From Actinomyces procaprae (GTDB lineage: Bacteria; Actinomycetota; Actinomycetes; Actinomycetales; Actinomycetaceae): 64,000 bases of DNA. Positions 15,622 through 62,140 of the stretch are shown piece after piece (positions within the stretch are counted from its first letter, which is position 1; each line of letters begins with the position of its first letter). The stretch spans positions 2,418,001 to 2,482,000 of the forward strand of contig NZ_CP039292.1 in NCBI RefSeq assembly GCF_004798665.1. Direction: 5' to 3'. The notes under the pieces are model-generated. The model saw only the letters and a program-made list of their open reading frames with translations, searched no databases and was not told the origin of the DNA. A program made the position numbers and the translations under genes.

Positions 15622-16686
15622 TCAGCCGCGCAGGGCGGCGGTGATGGCGTCCCCGATCTCACTGGTGGTGCGCGCCAGCGGGGTGCCGGCCGCCTCGGCC
15701 GCGGCGCGGGCCGCCATGTCGGCGTCGACGGCGGCCTCTACGCGGGCGGCCGCATCCGCCAGGCGAAGGTGCTTCAGGAGCATGGCGACCGCTGAGATGG
15801 TGGCGACCGGGTCGGCCTTGCCCTGGCCGGCGATGTCCGGGGCGGAGCCGTGCACCGGCTCGAACATGGAGGGGAACTCACCGGAGGGGTTGAGGTTGCC
15901 CGACGCCGACAGGCCGATTCCGCCGGTGATGGCGCCGGCCTCGTCGGTGAGGATGTCGCCGAAGAGGTTGTCGGTGACGATGACGTCGAAGCGGCCCGGG
16001 TCGGTGACCAGGTAGATGGTGGCGGCGTCCACGTGGGAGTAGTCGACCTTCACCTCCGGGTACTCGGCGCCGACGGCCTCGACGGTGCGGCGCCACAGGT
16101 GCCCGGCGTTGACCAGCACGTTGTGCTTGTGCACCAGGGTCAGGTGGCGTGCTGGGCGGGACTGGGCGGTCTCGAAGGCGTAGCGCACCACGCGCTCCAC
16201 CCCGTAGGCGGTGTTGACGCTGACCTCGGTGGCGATCTCGTGGGGGGTGCCCACGCGGACGGCGCCGCCGTTTCCGCAGTACAGGCCCTCGGTGCCCTCG
16301 CGCACCACCACGAAGTCGATGTCCCCGGGGTCGGCCAGGGGCGTGGCCACACCCGGGTAGTACTTTGAGGGGCGCAGGTTGACGTAGTGGTCCAGGGCGA
16401 AGCGCAGGCGCAGCAGCAGGCCGCGCTCGAGCACGCCGGAGGGGACCGACGGGTCACCGACGGCGCCCAGCAGGATGGCGTCGTGGGCCTTGATGTCCTC
16501 CAGCTCGGCGTCCGTGATGGTCTCGCCGGTGCGGTGCCAGCGCTCGGCGCCCAGGTCGAAGTCGGTGGTCTCCAGGGTGACGCCGCTGCCTTCAAGGGCC
16601 GCCTCAAGTACCTTCAGACCCTCGGGCACCACCTCCTTGCCGATGCCGTCGCCGGGGATCACTGCAAGCTTGATGGTCTGCGTCAT
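15622..16686 (-). CDS. leuB: 3-isopropylmalate dehydrogenase
   Basis: 354 residues. NAD-dependent oxidative decarboxylation of 3-isopropylmalate in leucine synthesis, in the cytoplasm. Hallmarks: [18 protein letters not shown] at the N-terminus, [15 protein letters not shown] and [17 protein letters not shown] in the substrate loop, [16 protein letters not shown], the metal-binding [18 protein letters not shown], and [18 protein letters not shown] in the NAD loop. The length and the region around residue 85 favour LeuB over isocitrate or tartrate dehydrogenase paralogues. It heads a minus-strand leuB-ilvE unit; the long non-coding stretch upstream carries tandem and inverted arrays rather than an obvious promoter. 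Confidence 0.93.
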
Positions 16687-16788
16687 GGCGCGACCCTAAG
16701 CGGAATGCTCGCAGCCCCGAGCGGGCATCTCAGATACCGGCGCGCGGTTGGCGGGCACTCCAGGAGACGCTGCGCCGCTCCTGCCCAC

Positions 16789-16920
16789 CACCTGCCGCCC
16801 CCCCTGCCACCTGCCGCCCCCCCCTGCCACCTGCCGACCTCCTGCCACCTGCCGCCCCCCCCTGCCACCTGCCGACCTCCTGCCACCTGCCGCCCCCCTG
16901 CAGACCTCCTGCAGACCTCC
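16789..16920. repeat. Short tandem repeat upstream of leuB
   Basis: About six imperfect copies of an 18-20 nt unit, CACCTGCCG followed by CCCCCC or ACCTC and then CTGC, ending in two shorter AGACCTCC copies. The two spacer types alternate, and the C-runs differ by one or two bases, as expected of slippage. The stretch is non-coding; apparent frames here are proline- or glycine-rich artefacts. Confidence 0.85.
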
Positions 16921-16962: not shown

Positions 16963-17069
16963 TTCCACGACCTTGGTGTGTATTCCACGACCTTGGTGCG
17001 CGTTGCACGACCACCCCGGGGTCGTGGAACGCGCACCAAGGTCGTGGAGTGACGCCCGGGGTCGTGCAA
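16963..17069. repeat. Symmetric 3+3 inverted array, CACGACC class
   Basis: Three forward units at a 20-nt period begin TTCCACGACC at 16963 and 16983 and TTGCACGACC at 17003. Three inverted units at the same period begin GGTCGTGGAA at 17020, GGTCGTGGAG at 17040 and GGTCGTGCAA at 17060. Within this lies a perfect 20-bp inverted repeat, CCACGACCTTGGTGCGCGTT at 16985-17004 against 17028-17047, centred at 17016. The array could fold as a long hairpin or present six protein sites. It shares architecture, not sequence, with the elements at 17395 and 61954. Confidence 0.85.
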
Positions 17070-17162
17070 CACGTATACGCCGCCGCGACCGGGCAAGCGG
17101 TCCCAGTCGGCCACGGCACTGACCATGCCGGCACACAGCCGCCGCGAACCGGGGCACCCGCG

Positions 17163-17315
17163 TTACTCGTTGCGCAGGTACGGCCTCACCCTAATCAGGG
17201 CGTCACTGAGCTCGTCTTCGAGCCTCTTCCAGGCCTCCAGTTGCTTGACGTCACCGTATATCTGGATTTGGCCGACGAGTTGGGAGCGCCTAGAGGCAAA
17301 CTCGGTCGACGTCAT
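17163..17315 (-). pseudogene. 50-codon ORF, possible gene remnant
   Basis: An ATG at 17315 opens a frame of 50 residues ending TAA at 17163. Its composition is protein-like (GDVKQLEAWKRLEDELSD, then ALIRVRPYLRNE) and less GC-biased than the flanking repeats. There is no ribosome site and an in-frame stop lies just upstream. It may be the surviving 3' end of a gene lost when the neighbouring elements accumulated. No family recognised. Confidence 0.3.
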
Positions 17316-17325
17316 GAAGCTAGGT

Positions 17326-17630
17326 CCGGTTGTGTAAGTGCTCGGGCGGGGTGCGCGGTTGGGCGTCTGTGCGCGCGGCCGTGAAGCCCGCCAGTTGGAC
17401 CCCTGTGCCCCCGTTGGACCCCTGTCCCCCCGTTGGACCGCCGTAGACGCTGGTTACAGCGGTCCAACGGGGCGTGAGCGGTCCAACGGGGCGTAAGCGG
17501 TCCAACCAGGGGCGGCGCAAAAGCCACCCGCCCCCTTCGGCTGCCGGCACCCAGGCCCCCGGCACCGCAGAAACGCCGGGGCCCTGGCTGCGCACAACAA
17601 TCCTCACCGAGCACACAGACCCGTCCGACC
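17326..17630 (-). repeat. Dispersed ~300-bp element, copy A (3+3 array core)
   Basis: On the minus strand this region matches 61825-62140 on the plus strand over its whole length, including the flanks GTGCTCGGTGAGGATTGTT at one end and CAACCGCGCACC near the other. The core has three TTGGACC units at 17395, 17414 and 17433 (19-nt period), a hairpin CGCTG-GTTA-CAGCG at 17448-17461, and three inverted GGTCCAAC units at 17461, 17480 and 17499 (19-nt period). No transposase and no convincing coding frame. It abuts the relic behind the ATPase at 17735. Confidence 0.85.
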
Positions 17631-17775
17631 ACAGGTCCGCCGGCACCCAGGCTTCGATCATCGTCACTGGGATCACCGGTACGACGCGCTCGTCGTCCGG
17701 CTTGCGGCACTCCTCGGTCCGAGCCTCAATGTCCTTAGGCTCGGTACTGTCGGCGTCCACCGATGAAGGCGCACC
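17625..17775 (-). pseudogene. Relic of a TOPRIM/DUF4276-like partner gene (tentative)
   Basis: A minus-strand frame overlapping the end of the ATPase gene in a different phase reads DADSTEPKDIEARTEECR and, nine residues later, PVIPVTMIEAWVPAD. The form [V/I]P[V/I]xx[I]EAWxxAD is characteristic of DUF4276/RloB-type TOPRIM-like proteins that accompany such ATPases. The frame then runs into repeat copy A and loses similarity. Neither a start nor a complete domain is present. Interpretation: the effector gene of the ATPase pair was deleted, leaving this fragment. The family match is from memory of motif style, not from a search. Confidence 0.4.
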
Positions 17776-19180
17776 GCCACGCATCGGTCTCCTCCGGCTC
17801 TGACGGGTTGCGCAGGAAGGCGAACAGCTTTGAGCGTGACACCGGTGCCGAGCTCCGTGGGCGGTCATCCGAGCGCTCCCACCGCTTAGACCGCCAGGTT
17901 CCCGGCAGCGGGTTGAAGGTGACGGACTCCGTGATGCGCCCATCGGGTTCCCGACGTCGCCATGGCACCGCGCACAGTACGTCGTCGGCGTGGTCTTGCA
18001 TGACGTCCTGGACCAGGTAGGGCGAGTGCGTGTTGACGAGGACCTGCCCGGCGTGGCCGTCACGGGCTTTGGTCATGGAGCGCAGCAGCTCGACCATGCC
18101 GCCCATCTTGGCGGGGTGGAGACCGTTCTCCGGTTCCTCAATGGCAACCAGGCTGGGACCGTCATCAAGGACCGCGAGGGCGGCGAGCGCAATAAGGCGC
18201 AGGGTGCCGTCGGAGAGGCTGCGCGCGGACAGCTCGGGACCGTCTCCGATCCTGGCGCGCAGCTCCAGGTAGTCGCCGTTGGGGACCACTCGCAGCGTGC
18301 GCATCTCAAGGAACGGGGCCAGGGCATCGATGATGTCCTGGTAGACCCGGCTGTCGTCCCGAGCGGCACGCCGGTAAAGGACCGAGGCCAGGTGCGCTCC
18401 CGACGCGGTGATGTCCGCCTCCTCATCGCGGTCATCCGCGCGCCGCAGCGCGGACGGCTCTAGGGAGAGGAAACGCCACGAACGCATCTGCGCGGCGACC
18501 GCGGCGACGGCCCTGGAACCACCGCCCCCACTTCGAGAATCGCCCAACGTTGTTCTTATGCCGAAGCCGCTGCGATACCACACCGGGTCACTATCTCCGC
18601 CGGGCTCAGATGGAGACGTATCTTGGAGGACAAAGACCACGTCGACATCCTCCACCCACTCCTCCCACTGGCCACCTTCCTCCGTGCCAACAGGCATGCG
18701 CACTTGGCCTGTCCAGATGTACTTCACGTCGTCGTCGAGTGAGACGAGGCGTTCCTCGGACAGGATGAGAGAGGTGTCGCCATCGCTTTCATTGACGCGG
18801 AACTCCACCTCGTAGCGGAATCTCTCGGCACGTGTGGGGACCGATGGCGACTCCGACCGAGGATCGCGCGGTACCACCTGCCCGGGCGGCGTCACGTCGA
18901 CGTCTGCCGTAACCTCCGCAGCAATCCGGACCGTGTGCCCGCCGGCGAGCGACTCGGGCGGGAAGAGCACGCGCAGTGGCGTCTTCTGGCCGCCGTCGGA
19001 ACGCAGGCGCCGGAAGGCCTCGCGGTAGGGGTACTGCACGAGGAGGCTGAGCAGCTCAATGGCGTCGAACAGGTTCGACTTCCCAACGCCGTTTGGCCCT
19101 GCAATCACCGTCATAGGACCGAAGTCAACGGCAACGTCCCGGAGGTTCTTGAACCCCGAGACCTCGATCCTGGTCAGCAC
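17735..19180 (-). CDS. AAA/ABC-type ATPase, tandem paralogue A
   Basis: 481 residues from a GTG at 19180 with AAGGAG 8 nt upstream. SMC/RecF/OLD-like ATPase: N-terminal LTRIEVSGFKNLRDVAVDFG, Walker A AGPNGVGKSN (residues ~28-36), signature-like ARSLSDGTLRLIALAAL, Walker B LVAIEEPENGLHPAK (~345) and QVLVNTHSPYLVQ. It shares with paralogue B the internal line MxSWRFLxLEPSAxRxxDD and a C-terminal pattern PLxGTWxxxxW. Such ATPases often control a nuclease partner in anti-phage modules. Its last residues after NPSEPEE have no counterpart in paralogue B and seem to be out-of-frame reading into the partner relic, so the natural 3' end is probably altered. Confidence 0.85.
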   Translation of the reverse strand: MLTRIEVSGFKNLRDVAVDFGPMTVIAGPNGVGKSNLFDAIELLSLLVQYPYREAFRRLRSDGGQKTPLRVLFPPESLAGGHTVRIAAEVTADVDVTPPGQVVPRDPRSESPSVPTRAERFRYEVEFRVNESDGDTSLILSEERLVSLDDDVKYIWTGQVRMPVGTEEGGQWEEWVEDVDVVFVLQDTSPSEPGGDSDPVWYRSGFGIRTTLGDSRSGGGGSRAVAAVAAQMRSWRFLSLEPSALRRADDRDEEADITASGAHLASVLYRRAARDDSRVYQDIIDALAPFLEMRTLRVVPNGDYLELRARIGDGPELSARSLSDGTLRLIALAALAVLDDGPSLVAIEEPENGLHPAKMGGMVELLRSMTKARDGHAGQVLVNTHSPYLVQDVMQDHADDVLCAVPWRRREPDGRITESVTFNPLPGTWRSKRWERSDDRPRSSAPVSRSKLFAFLRNPSEPEETDAWRCAFIGGRRQYRA

Positions 19181-19280
19181 GACCCCGACTCCTTCCCGCA
19201 ACGTTCGCACCGGTCACCGACCAGGCTAACAGCCGTGCCACTCCAACATGTGGGGGCGAGGGCATCCTCTGCCCCGCTCC

Positions 19281-61824: not shown

Positions 61825-62140
61825 CTCATGGGCGGTTCGGCTGCGTGCTCGGTGAGGATTGTTTGGTGCAGTCAGGCGCCCACGACGTTCCCGTGGTGTT
61901 GGGCGCCTGGTTGCCGACAGTCGAGGGGCGGGTGGGTCCTACGCCGCCCTGGTTGGACCGCTCACGCCCCGATGGACCGCTCACGCCCCGATGGACCGCT
62001 GTAACCAGCGGCTACGGCGGTCCAACGGGGGCACAGCGGTCCAACGGGGGAACAGGGGTCCAACGGGCAGGCTCAACGGCCACGCGCATCGCCCCCAACC
62101 GCGCACCGCCACCCAAGCACTCTCGCAACCGGGCCAAGTG
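61825..62140 (+). repeat. Dispersed ~300-bp element, copy B (3+3 array core)
   Basis: Matches 17326-17630 in opposite orientation. Forward units TGGACCGCTCACGCCCC begin at 61954 and 61973, and a third TGGACCGCTG at 61992 (19-nt period). A hairpin CCGCTG-TAAC-CAGCGG occupies 61996-62011. Inverted GGTCCAACGGG units begin at 62019, 62038 and 62057 (19-nt period). Conserved flanks include GTGCTCGGTGAGGATTGTT at the left and CAACCGCGCACCGCC at the right. No transposase, target duplication or convincing coding frame. It occupies the gap between the RDD and DUF3499 genes. Confidence 0.85.

Follow-up and report, generated by a model that had tools for sequence, protein, structure and literature searches.

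The ends of Tn7, Mu and Tn5053 each carry several transposase sites of 19-22 bp in direct repeat, and the two ends mirror each other. The arrays analysed here, the first of which lies at positions 16963 to 17069 of the window (the whole 64,000-nucleotide stretch of DNA that was analysed), likewise have several direct-repeat sites per arm and mirrored arms; unlike these transposon ends, they could be tied to no such transposase and no target-site duplication. Integron attC sites carry the motifs GTTRRRY/RYYYAAC, and the 19-nt arrays (class B, see below) show some attC likeness, with the opposite polarity. ERIC and RU elements contain, to our knowledge, no phased repeated unit.

BIMEs are clusters of REP units, and in E. 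coli the REPs at the ends of genes have been reported to be targets of gyrase (PMC3733652). The arrays resemble REP/BIME and REPIN sequences in being intergenic, palindromic and multicopy, and differ from them, as far as these are described in the two accounts, in that the units are phased at 19-20 bp, face the same way within each arm and are mirrored across a fixed centre (PMC3733652, PMC3116915). Where a REPIN has two mirrored palindromic REP units, these multicopy, intergenic and mirrored arrays have in each arm a series of direct repeats in phase. The REPIN/RAYT system was ruled out, and the arrays do not qualify as REPINs, because the RAYT-type Y1_Tnp transposase (PF01797) was found in 0 of 20 genomes in a search whose control was positive in 5 of 14 named genomes. 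The BrickBuilt MITE of Porphyromonas gingivalis, of limited host range, is an intergenic 23-nt tandem repeat with 19 copies in one strain (PMC4596501). The arrays share with it the nature of intergenic miniature-type repeats with a short period; it is described as tandem repeats with a leader and a tail, and mirrored arms, a fixed centre and site conservation do not figure in the description available (PMC4596501). Correia elements of Neisseria, small repeats of mobile type, have been reported to invert, as is seen for some of the arrays; the same report gives them promoters and a position upstream of genes, and phased internal sites are not part of that report as we have it (PMC10969869). ERIC and RU sequences (RU-1, 127 bp; RU-3, 103 bp), which have been likened to MITEs, are small and intergenic, as are the arrays (PMC2759123, PMC2229807). 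The arrays belong with this intergenic palindromic-repeat or MITE kind and are unusually constrained for it. No description of such mirrored arrays was found in the literature searched at title and abstract level, and the titles listed for three array sequence words were unrelated.

Layout of the arrays in the window

An earlier note on this DNA had described three units mirrored by three at an exact period of 20 nt, and the analysis confirmed this mirrored array at 16963-17069 (class A). The heptamer CACGACC stands on the + strand at 16966-16972 (L3), 16986-16992 (L2) and 17006-17012 (L1), and GGTCGTG, on the - strand, at 17020-17026 (R1), 17040-17046 (R2) and 17060-17066 (R3), with steps of 20, 20, 14, 20 and 20. 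Between the arms lies an asymmetric 7-nt centre, ACCCCGG (reverse complement CCGGGGT; 17013-17019), which is present in either orientation in 67 of the 102 class A arrays collected. The perfect inverted repeat that the note had placed inside the array, at 20 bp, measured 21 bp (16984-17048, arms 16984-17004 and 17028-17048). The array, its centre and this repeat, like the class B arrays, were assigned to neither strand. Direct heptamer pairs in the window numbered 4 against 0.01 expected from dinucleotide shuffles, and four or more occurred in 0 of 100 shuffles, which excludes chance.

Arrays of the same plan with a 19-nt period had been noted about 330 bp away and at 62 kb, and both were found, at 17396-17504 and 61954-62062. 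They are 3+3 arrays of class B, the nearer one made of TGGACC units with a 19-nt period around a 21-nt centre at 17440-17460. A leuB-like gene (Pfam Iso_dh; 15622-16686, - strand) starts 280 bp from the class A array, which lies upstream of it, and an AAA_21 ATPase open reading frame (17735-19210, - strand) lies on the far side of the arrays at 16966 and 17396, both of which stand between these co-directional genes; the array at 61954 lies between convergent genes. As a further observation, a C-rich tandem array with a 19-20-nt (38-nt) period adjoins the class A array at 16788-16898 and is largely missing at the orthologous locus of the relative G199.

Site conservation and array geometry

In 26 independent, orthologous and non-flipped pairs of class A arrays, heptamers had changed at 8 of 966 sites (0.8%) and spacers at 112 of 949 (11.8%), a divergence more than tenfold lower for the heptamers; the pairs share ancestry, and units with more than two mismatches were not counted here and are covered by the survey of third-unit places below. 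The aligned flanks diverged by 8.7%. The arrays were found by exact heptamer patterns, and the inner heptamers, as part of the search pattern, are biased towards conservation; free of this bias are the outermost heptamers, which the pattern did not require (2 changes in 245), and the GG at spacer bases 3 and 4 (changed in 4.1% and 0% of cases in the 26 pairs, and in 1.8% and 0% in all 56). Heptamer positions 2, 3, 4 and 6 showed no change across the 56 pairs, wobble changes included. Units were gained and lost whole: of 71 homologous places for a third unit, a number in which most loci count twice because each pair was read either way, 60 had an exact heptamer, 4 one with a single mismatch and 4 one shifted by 1 bp, 3 lacked it, and no heptamer was half-decayed. 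In class B, about 3% of positions differed from GGTCCA in 147 right-arm units of 39 arrays, the spacers of these arrays departed from the type consensus at 11.7%, and the seventh base of the motif was variable (20%), all measured on paralogous copies within the own genome.

The spacing across the centre was just as regular. In the own genome (G000), it was 14 in 24/24 class A and 27 in 42/42 class B arrays, in a scan that joined heptamers up to 42 bp apart and would miss wider centres. Class B centres, with lengths of 20-22 nt admitted, were 21 nt long in 74 of the 75 distinct arrays, and their sequence varied by species. Steps in the own genome were 20 (n=65) or 19 (n=9) in class A, and 19 (n=187), 20 (n=16) or 21, 18 and 17 (n=4) in class B, while 7 further steps of 38-40 in the two classes bridged an imperfect unit. 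Unit number behaved differently. The earlier note had taken it as fixed, and all three window arrays are indeed 3+3; elsewhere this arrangement, although the commonest in class A, was found in 45 of 102 class A arrays (24 being 2+2 and 33 other) and 16 of 75 distinct class B arrays, and unit counts were unequal at 14 of 25 orthologous loci (71 arrays, 76 pairs). Since unit number varies and the centre spacing is constant, the fixed number is wrong beyond the window and the geometry is not incidental. The functional architecture proposed in the note therefore loses its fixed count and keeps its constraint: the constant centre, the conserved heptamers and the all-or-none units suggest a multi-site protein target.

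Frozen heptamers beside drifting spacers match what is expected of sequence-specific recognition, and because the heptamers stay nearly constant where the intervening stretches accumulate changes, the arrays look like rows of protein docking sites. With about even confidence, we read the array as a dyad-symmetric row, in phase with the DNA helix, of putative sites for a sequence-specific DNA-binding protein. The class A site would be CACGACC followed, after two free bases, by GG (CACGACCnnGG), once per 20 bp, with most often three sites facing three across a rigid 7-bp centre; 20 bp being about two helical turns, these sites would lie roughly on one face of the DNA. The class B site would be a TTGGACC-like sequence recurring at 19-bp intervals on either side of a rigid centre of 21 bp. 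The predicted protein would bind these sites and may bring both arms into one complex.

RNA folding and in-place inversion

The folded RNA that the earlier note had suggested for checking proved possible in principle, the array at 16963-17069 having folding energies of -88.0 kcal/mol (+ strand) and -75.0 kcal/mol (opposite strand). A long hairpin serving as a bidirectional terminator, an RNase III site or an mRNA stabiliser would agree with this stable fold, with the preference of the arrays for gaps between convergent genes and with an excess of G-U over A-C apposed bases on the ACCCCGG strand (307 vs 158 in 93 distinct arrays). This excess looks inherited, since recent one-sided arm changes in the 26 pairs led from Watson-Crick to G-U in 36 cases and to A-C in 32, and only 2 double changes kept Watson-Crick pairs. 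The invariance of heptamer positions 2, 3, 4 and 6, to wobble changes as well, argues in the same direction. A T-rich tract (at least 6 T in 10) followed the array at 0 of 204 ends, a count that gives no sign of intrinsic terminators; 16 of 95 class A arrays lie between divergent genes; and no match to a known RNA family was found in the window at the Rfam gathering score. An RNA hairpin under current selection for pairing was therefore rejected, the recent substitutions showing no pairing preference despite the folding energy and the G-U excess, and an RNA element of any of these kinds is quite improbable. The lack of pairing preference in recent changes and of T tracts favours recognition at the DNA level.

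Covariation between the arms was slight in class A (0.695 vs 0.659 ± 0.013 in shuffles, the largest shuffle reaching 0.702), not seen over all 71 class B arrays (0.612 vs 0.596 ± 0.017) and clear in a subset of 14 class B arrays that have other centres (0.668 vs 0.467 ± 0.042). The class A value and that of the 14 class B arrays could also fit hairpin-directed mutation or template switching.

Comparison of the 25 orthologous loci revealed arrays that had been inverted in place. The threshold for whole-array inversion was passed at two loci, and two others showed a flip of the centre only. The clean whole-array case sets G199 (L238) against G149 (L198), G000 (L073) and G201 (L277); flipped, L238 differs from L198 by 2 mismatches in 106 bp, with flanks 92 and 98% identical. 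In the second case, L246 against L285, the evidence is weak, with scores of 0.49 and 0.64. At the locus of the 16963-17069 array, the G199 array aligns better when flipped (142 vs 116) and that of G201 slightly so (132 vs 126), which points to a likely inversion in these relatives. Template switching has been reported to homogenise the arms of inverted repeats and to invert their spacers, and on that account it would be a sufficient mechanism for the inversion of the arrays (PMC8604942). The inversions most likely arose by exchange or by polymerase template switching between the mirrored arms.

Mutation might also be the whole explanation, with slippage multiplying blocks of about 20 nt, template switching homogenising or flipping the arms, and no recognition involved. 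The whole-unit copy changes at 14 of 25 loci, the centre-only flips at two loci, the whole-array flips at two (one clear, one weak), the second 19-20-nt tandem array adjoining at 16788-16898 and the reported effects of template switching (PMC8604942) all fit such a process. It leaves unexplained why heptamers are frozen beside drifting spacers, why the centre spacing is constant and why class B centres of different sequence have equal length in several species, and we regard it as very improbable.

Carriers, distribution and genomic placement

The recurrence of one plan in two unrelated sequence classes, which the earlier note had stressed, is partly explained by the finding that the nearer class B array, 330 bp from the class A array, lies within a miniature element of IS5 type (17320-17626, - strand), which has a terminal repeat CTAGGTCCGGTTGTGT at 17320-17335 and is truncated, with the other end unrecognisable. 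The terminal repeat starts at CTAG, and the orthologous G199 locus, without the element, has a single CTAG at this point. The flanks of the array at 61954-62062 resemble the same element, with terminal repeats decayed or unrecognised. Three complete copies of the carrier were found (L087, L105 and L074; 417, 411 and 334 bp), of the form CTAGG...CCTAG with matching ends; like a MITE, the carrier thus has terminal inverted repeats and a target duplication, as seen in these three copies and the single CTAG of the relative. In most of the other copies, among them the two of the window, one end or both could not be recognised. Of 33 class B arrays tested, 17 had a left flank that aligned to the end of the resident IS of L106, or 16, because the L106 match is the adjacent IS itself; the transposase of this IS matches NF033580 (IS5 family), so the carrier also resembles a MITE in having ends derived from a resident autonomous IS. 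By these tests, the remaining class B arrays, the one at 62 kb among them, have decayed ends, ends of another kind or no ends of this type.

Several side observations concern the surroundings of class B arrays. Region 17134-17731 consists of two blocks that match one G199 region by the AAA_21 ATPase and are split by the class B element; about 120 bp of G199 sequence is missing there, and by eye it has the appearance of a broken small gene. Three class B arrays in G187 and G197 (L181, L182 and L183) have conserved flanks of another kind in common (GCATGTCGTGACGC side), which suggests that they may be spread by a different carrier in these genomes. At L114:2986-3075 and L114:5437-5526, two class B arrays that are identical to each other, near flanks included, are separated by 2.45 kb of DNA that holds a transposase gene of the IS1634 family.

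For class A, no consistent target-site duplication was found at the array ends. Flank words common to both sides were in slight excess, 5-mers in 30 of 91 arrays against 21.5 ± 3.9 shuffled and 7-mers in 5 against 1.9 ± 1.4, and by eye an 8-bp TGAGCGGC repeat flanks the G201 insert at one locus. Several class A arrays sit within larger dispersed repeats. The L191 locus has arrays in G178, G149, G200 and G201 and none in G000 and G199, in which the stop codons of the convergent genes are almost adjacent; the L066 locus has arrays in G000, G149 and G199, none in G200 and G201 and a deletion remnant in G178; the absences at both loci come with other length changes. Mobile or dispersed repeats probably carried the copies along as cargo, the IS5-type miniature element doing so for class B in this species group.

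These data bear on the idea that the arrays are selfish, non-autonomous mobile elements, in which the heptamers would be transposase or recombinase sites without host function and the inversions and unit changes would be by-products. Multicopy dispersal, presence and absence among relatives, the deletion remnant, the residence of class B in a miniature element that is IS5-derived and, where complete, bounded by CTAG on either side, that of several class A arrays in larger repeats, the excess of flank words and the terminal look of the common outer class A ends (TTGCACGACC...GGTCGTGCAA) are all in keeping with it. It is harder to reconcile with the lack of a consistent target-site duplication in class A, with the search for Y1_Tnp that found none in 20 genomes and, in the comparison of orthologous copies, with a site conservation unexpected of dead copies. 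A search for a Mu/Tn7-type transposase (Mu-transpos_C, PF09299) gave no match and excludes nothing, because its control was silent too. A purely selfish element is possible and, to our mind, rather unlikely.

The collection comprised 102 class A arrays from five Actinomyces genomes, at least 24 of them from the own genome, and 75 distinct class B arrays, numbers that represent loci returned by pattern searches and not whole-genome censuses. In the own genome, which measures 3.6 Mb and belongs to an Actinomyces with rumen species among its relatives, the heptamer-pair pattern gave 37+56 pairs, some of which are class C (see below), against 3+5 for the reversed pattern, and the class B pattern gave 162+149 against 20+22. 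The full class A core was found in 4 of 200 family genomes, namely 4 of 37 within the genus (own included) and 0 of 163 outside it, and also in the relatives G200 and G201 (3 of the 19 genomes of a second set, the own genome counted). A scan of a species-genome collection returned 86 class A stretches; among the 80 matches listed, 77 lay in four species from the rumen (A. ruminis, A. succiniciruminis, A. ruminicola and A. glycerinitolerans) and the remaining 3 were single one-sided matches in other species. Class B was found in 8 of the 200 family genomes, G000, G149, G178, G199, G145, G187, G197 and one of another genus, whose isolated one-strand match is probably due to chance. Viral contigs gave 0 stretches with the class A pattern, and thus no sign of phage-borne arrays, and 3 with the class B pattern, none of which on inspection had mirrored 19-nt arms.

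Two further kinds of phased array were noticed. Class C consists of GGTCGTGTTCGGGCG units in 20-nt steps, mostly direct (L080:2468-2743, L118-L120 and the right end of the L063 array), and in L080, L119 and L120 surrounds a hairpin AAACCCTCC...GGAGGGTTT (by eye). Class D consists of direct GAGGTCGGT arrays in 22-23-nt steps (e.g. L082:3245-3320, L075:8181-8280 and L120:2779-2851), with 129+139 unit pairs in G000 against 0 in the reversed control, 82 in G149, 57 in G200, 27 in G199, 8 in G201, 6 in G145 and at most one in each of the 14 remaining genomes of the 20 searched.

The arrays are intergenic, with 0 of 99 class A and 0 of 53 class B arrays inside predicted genes. Where both neighbours were called, 37 of 95 class A and 28 of 52 class B arrays lay between convergent genes, compared with 11% of array-free intergenic bases at the same loci; this background leaves out array-bearing gaps, with which convergent gaps make up 61/276 by count and 28% by length, and the gene calls come from a codon-usage script at orthologous loci that are not independent. 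Within 1.5 kb of the arrays of G000, no recurrent partner gene was found beyond common families, the recurrent groups by eye being ABC ATPases, LacI-type regulators, ROK-type proteins and an IS5 transposase, besides some pairs. Five genomes share a locus (L068:2940-4531) at which two oppositely oriented class A arrays are separated by about 1.4 kb; the two in G178 belong to the TTGGGGTAC subtype. A small gene that lies between the two arrays in G000, AbiEi/DUF559-like by eye, was dropped as a candidate for the binding protein; its predicted product matched RAP and, below the cut-off, a REase model. DUF559 was likewise rejected as a partner, being found in 15 of 16 genomes, including 6 of 7 array-free ones, with none of the 5 G000 matches at this locus.

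For the putative binding sites, this placement might mean a role in chromosome topology or in insulation at gene boundaries, preferably convergent ones, in the manner of BIMEs; a topological role akin to that proposed for REP/BIME is our guess from array placement and that proposal (PMC3733652). Beyond this, classes A to D might form one family of phased arrays on a GGTC/GACC core with 19-23-bp steps, mirrored around a rigid centre in A and B, each with its own predicted binder from one family of DNA-binding proteins and each a two-armed, flippable complex that would mark or insulate boundaries, an extension we consider unlikely.

Intergenic palindromic repeats are usually regarded as selfish debris. 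The base-by-base comparison of orthologous arrays parts frozen sites from free spacers and points to a putative protein that reads them, and the frozen sites offer a direct route to fishing out this putative array-binding protein. It is unusual for a two-armed, helically phased geometry with a fixed centre to recur in two sequence classes, and the in-place inversion between species presents a natural assay of the rearrangement of short palindromic arrays.
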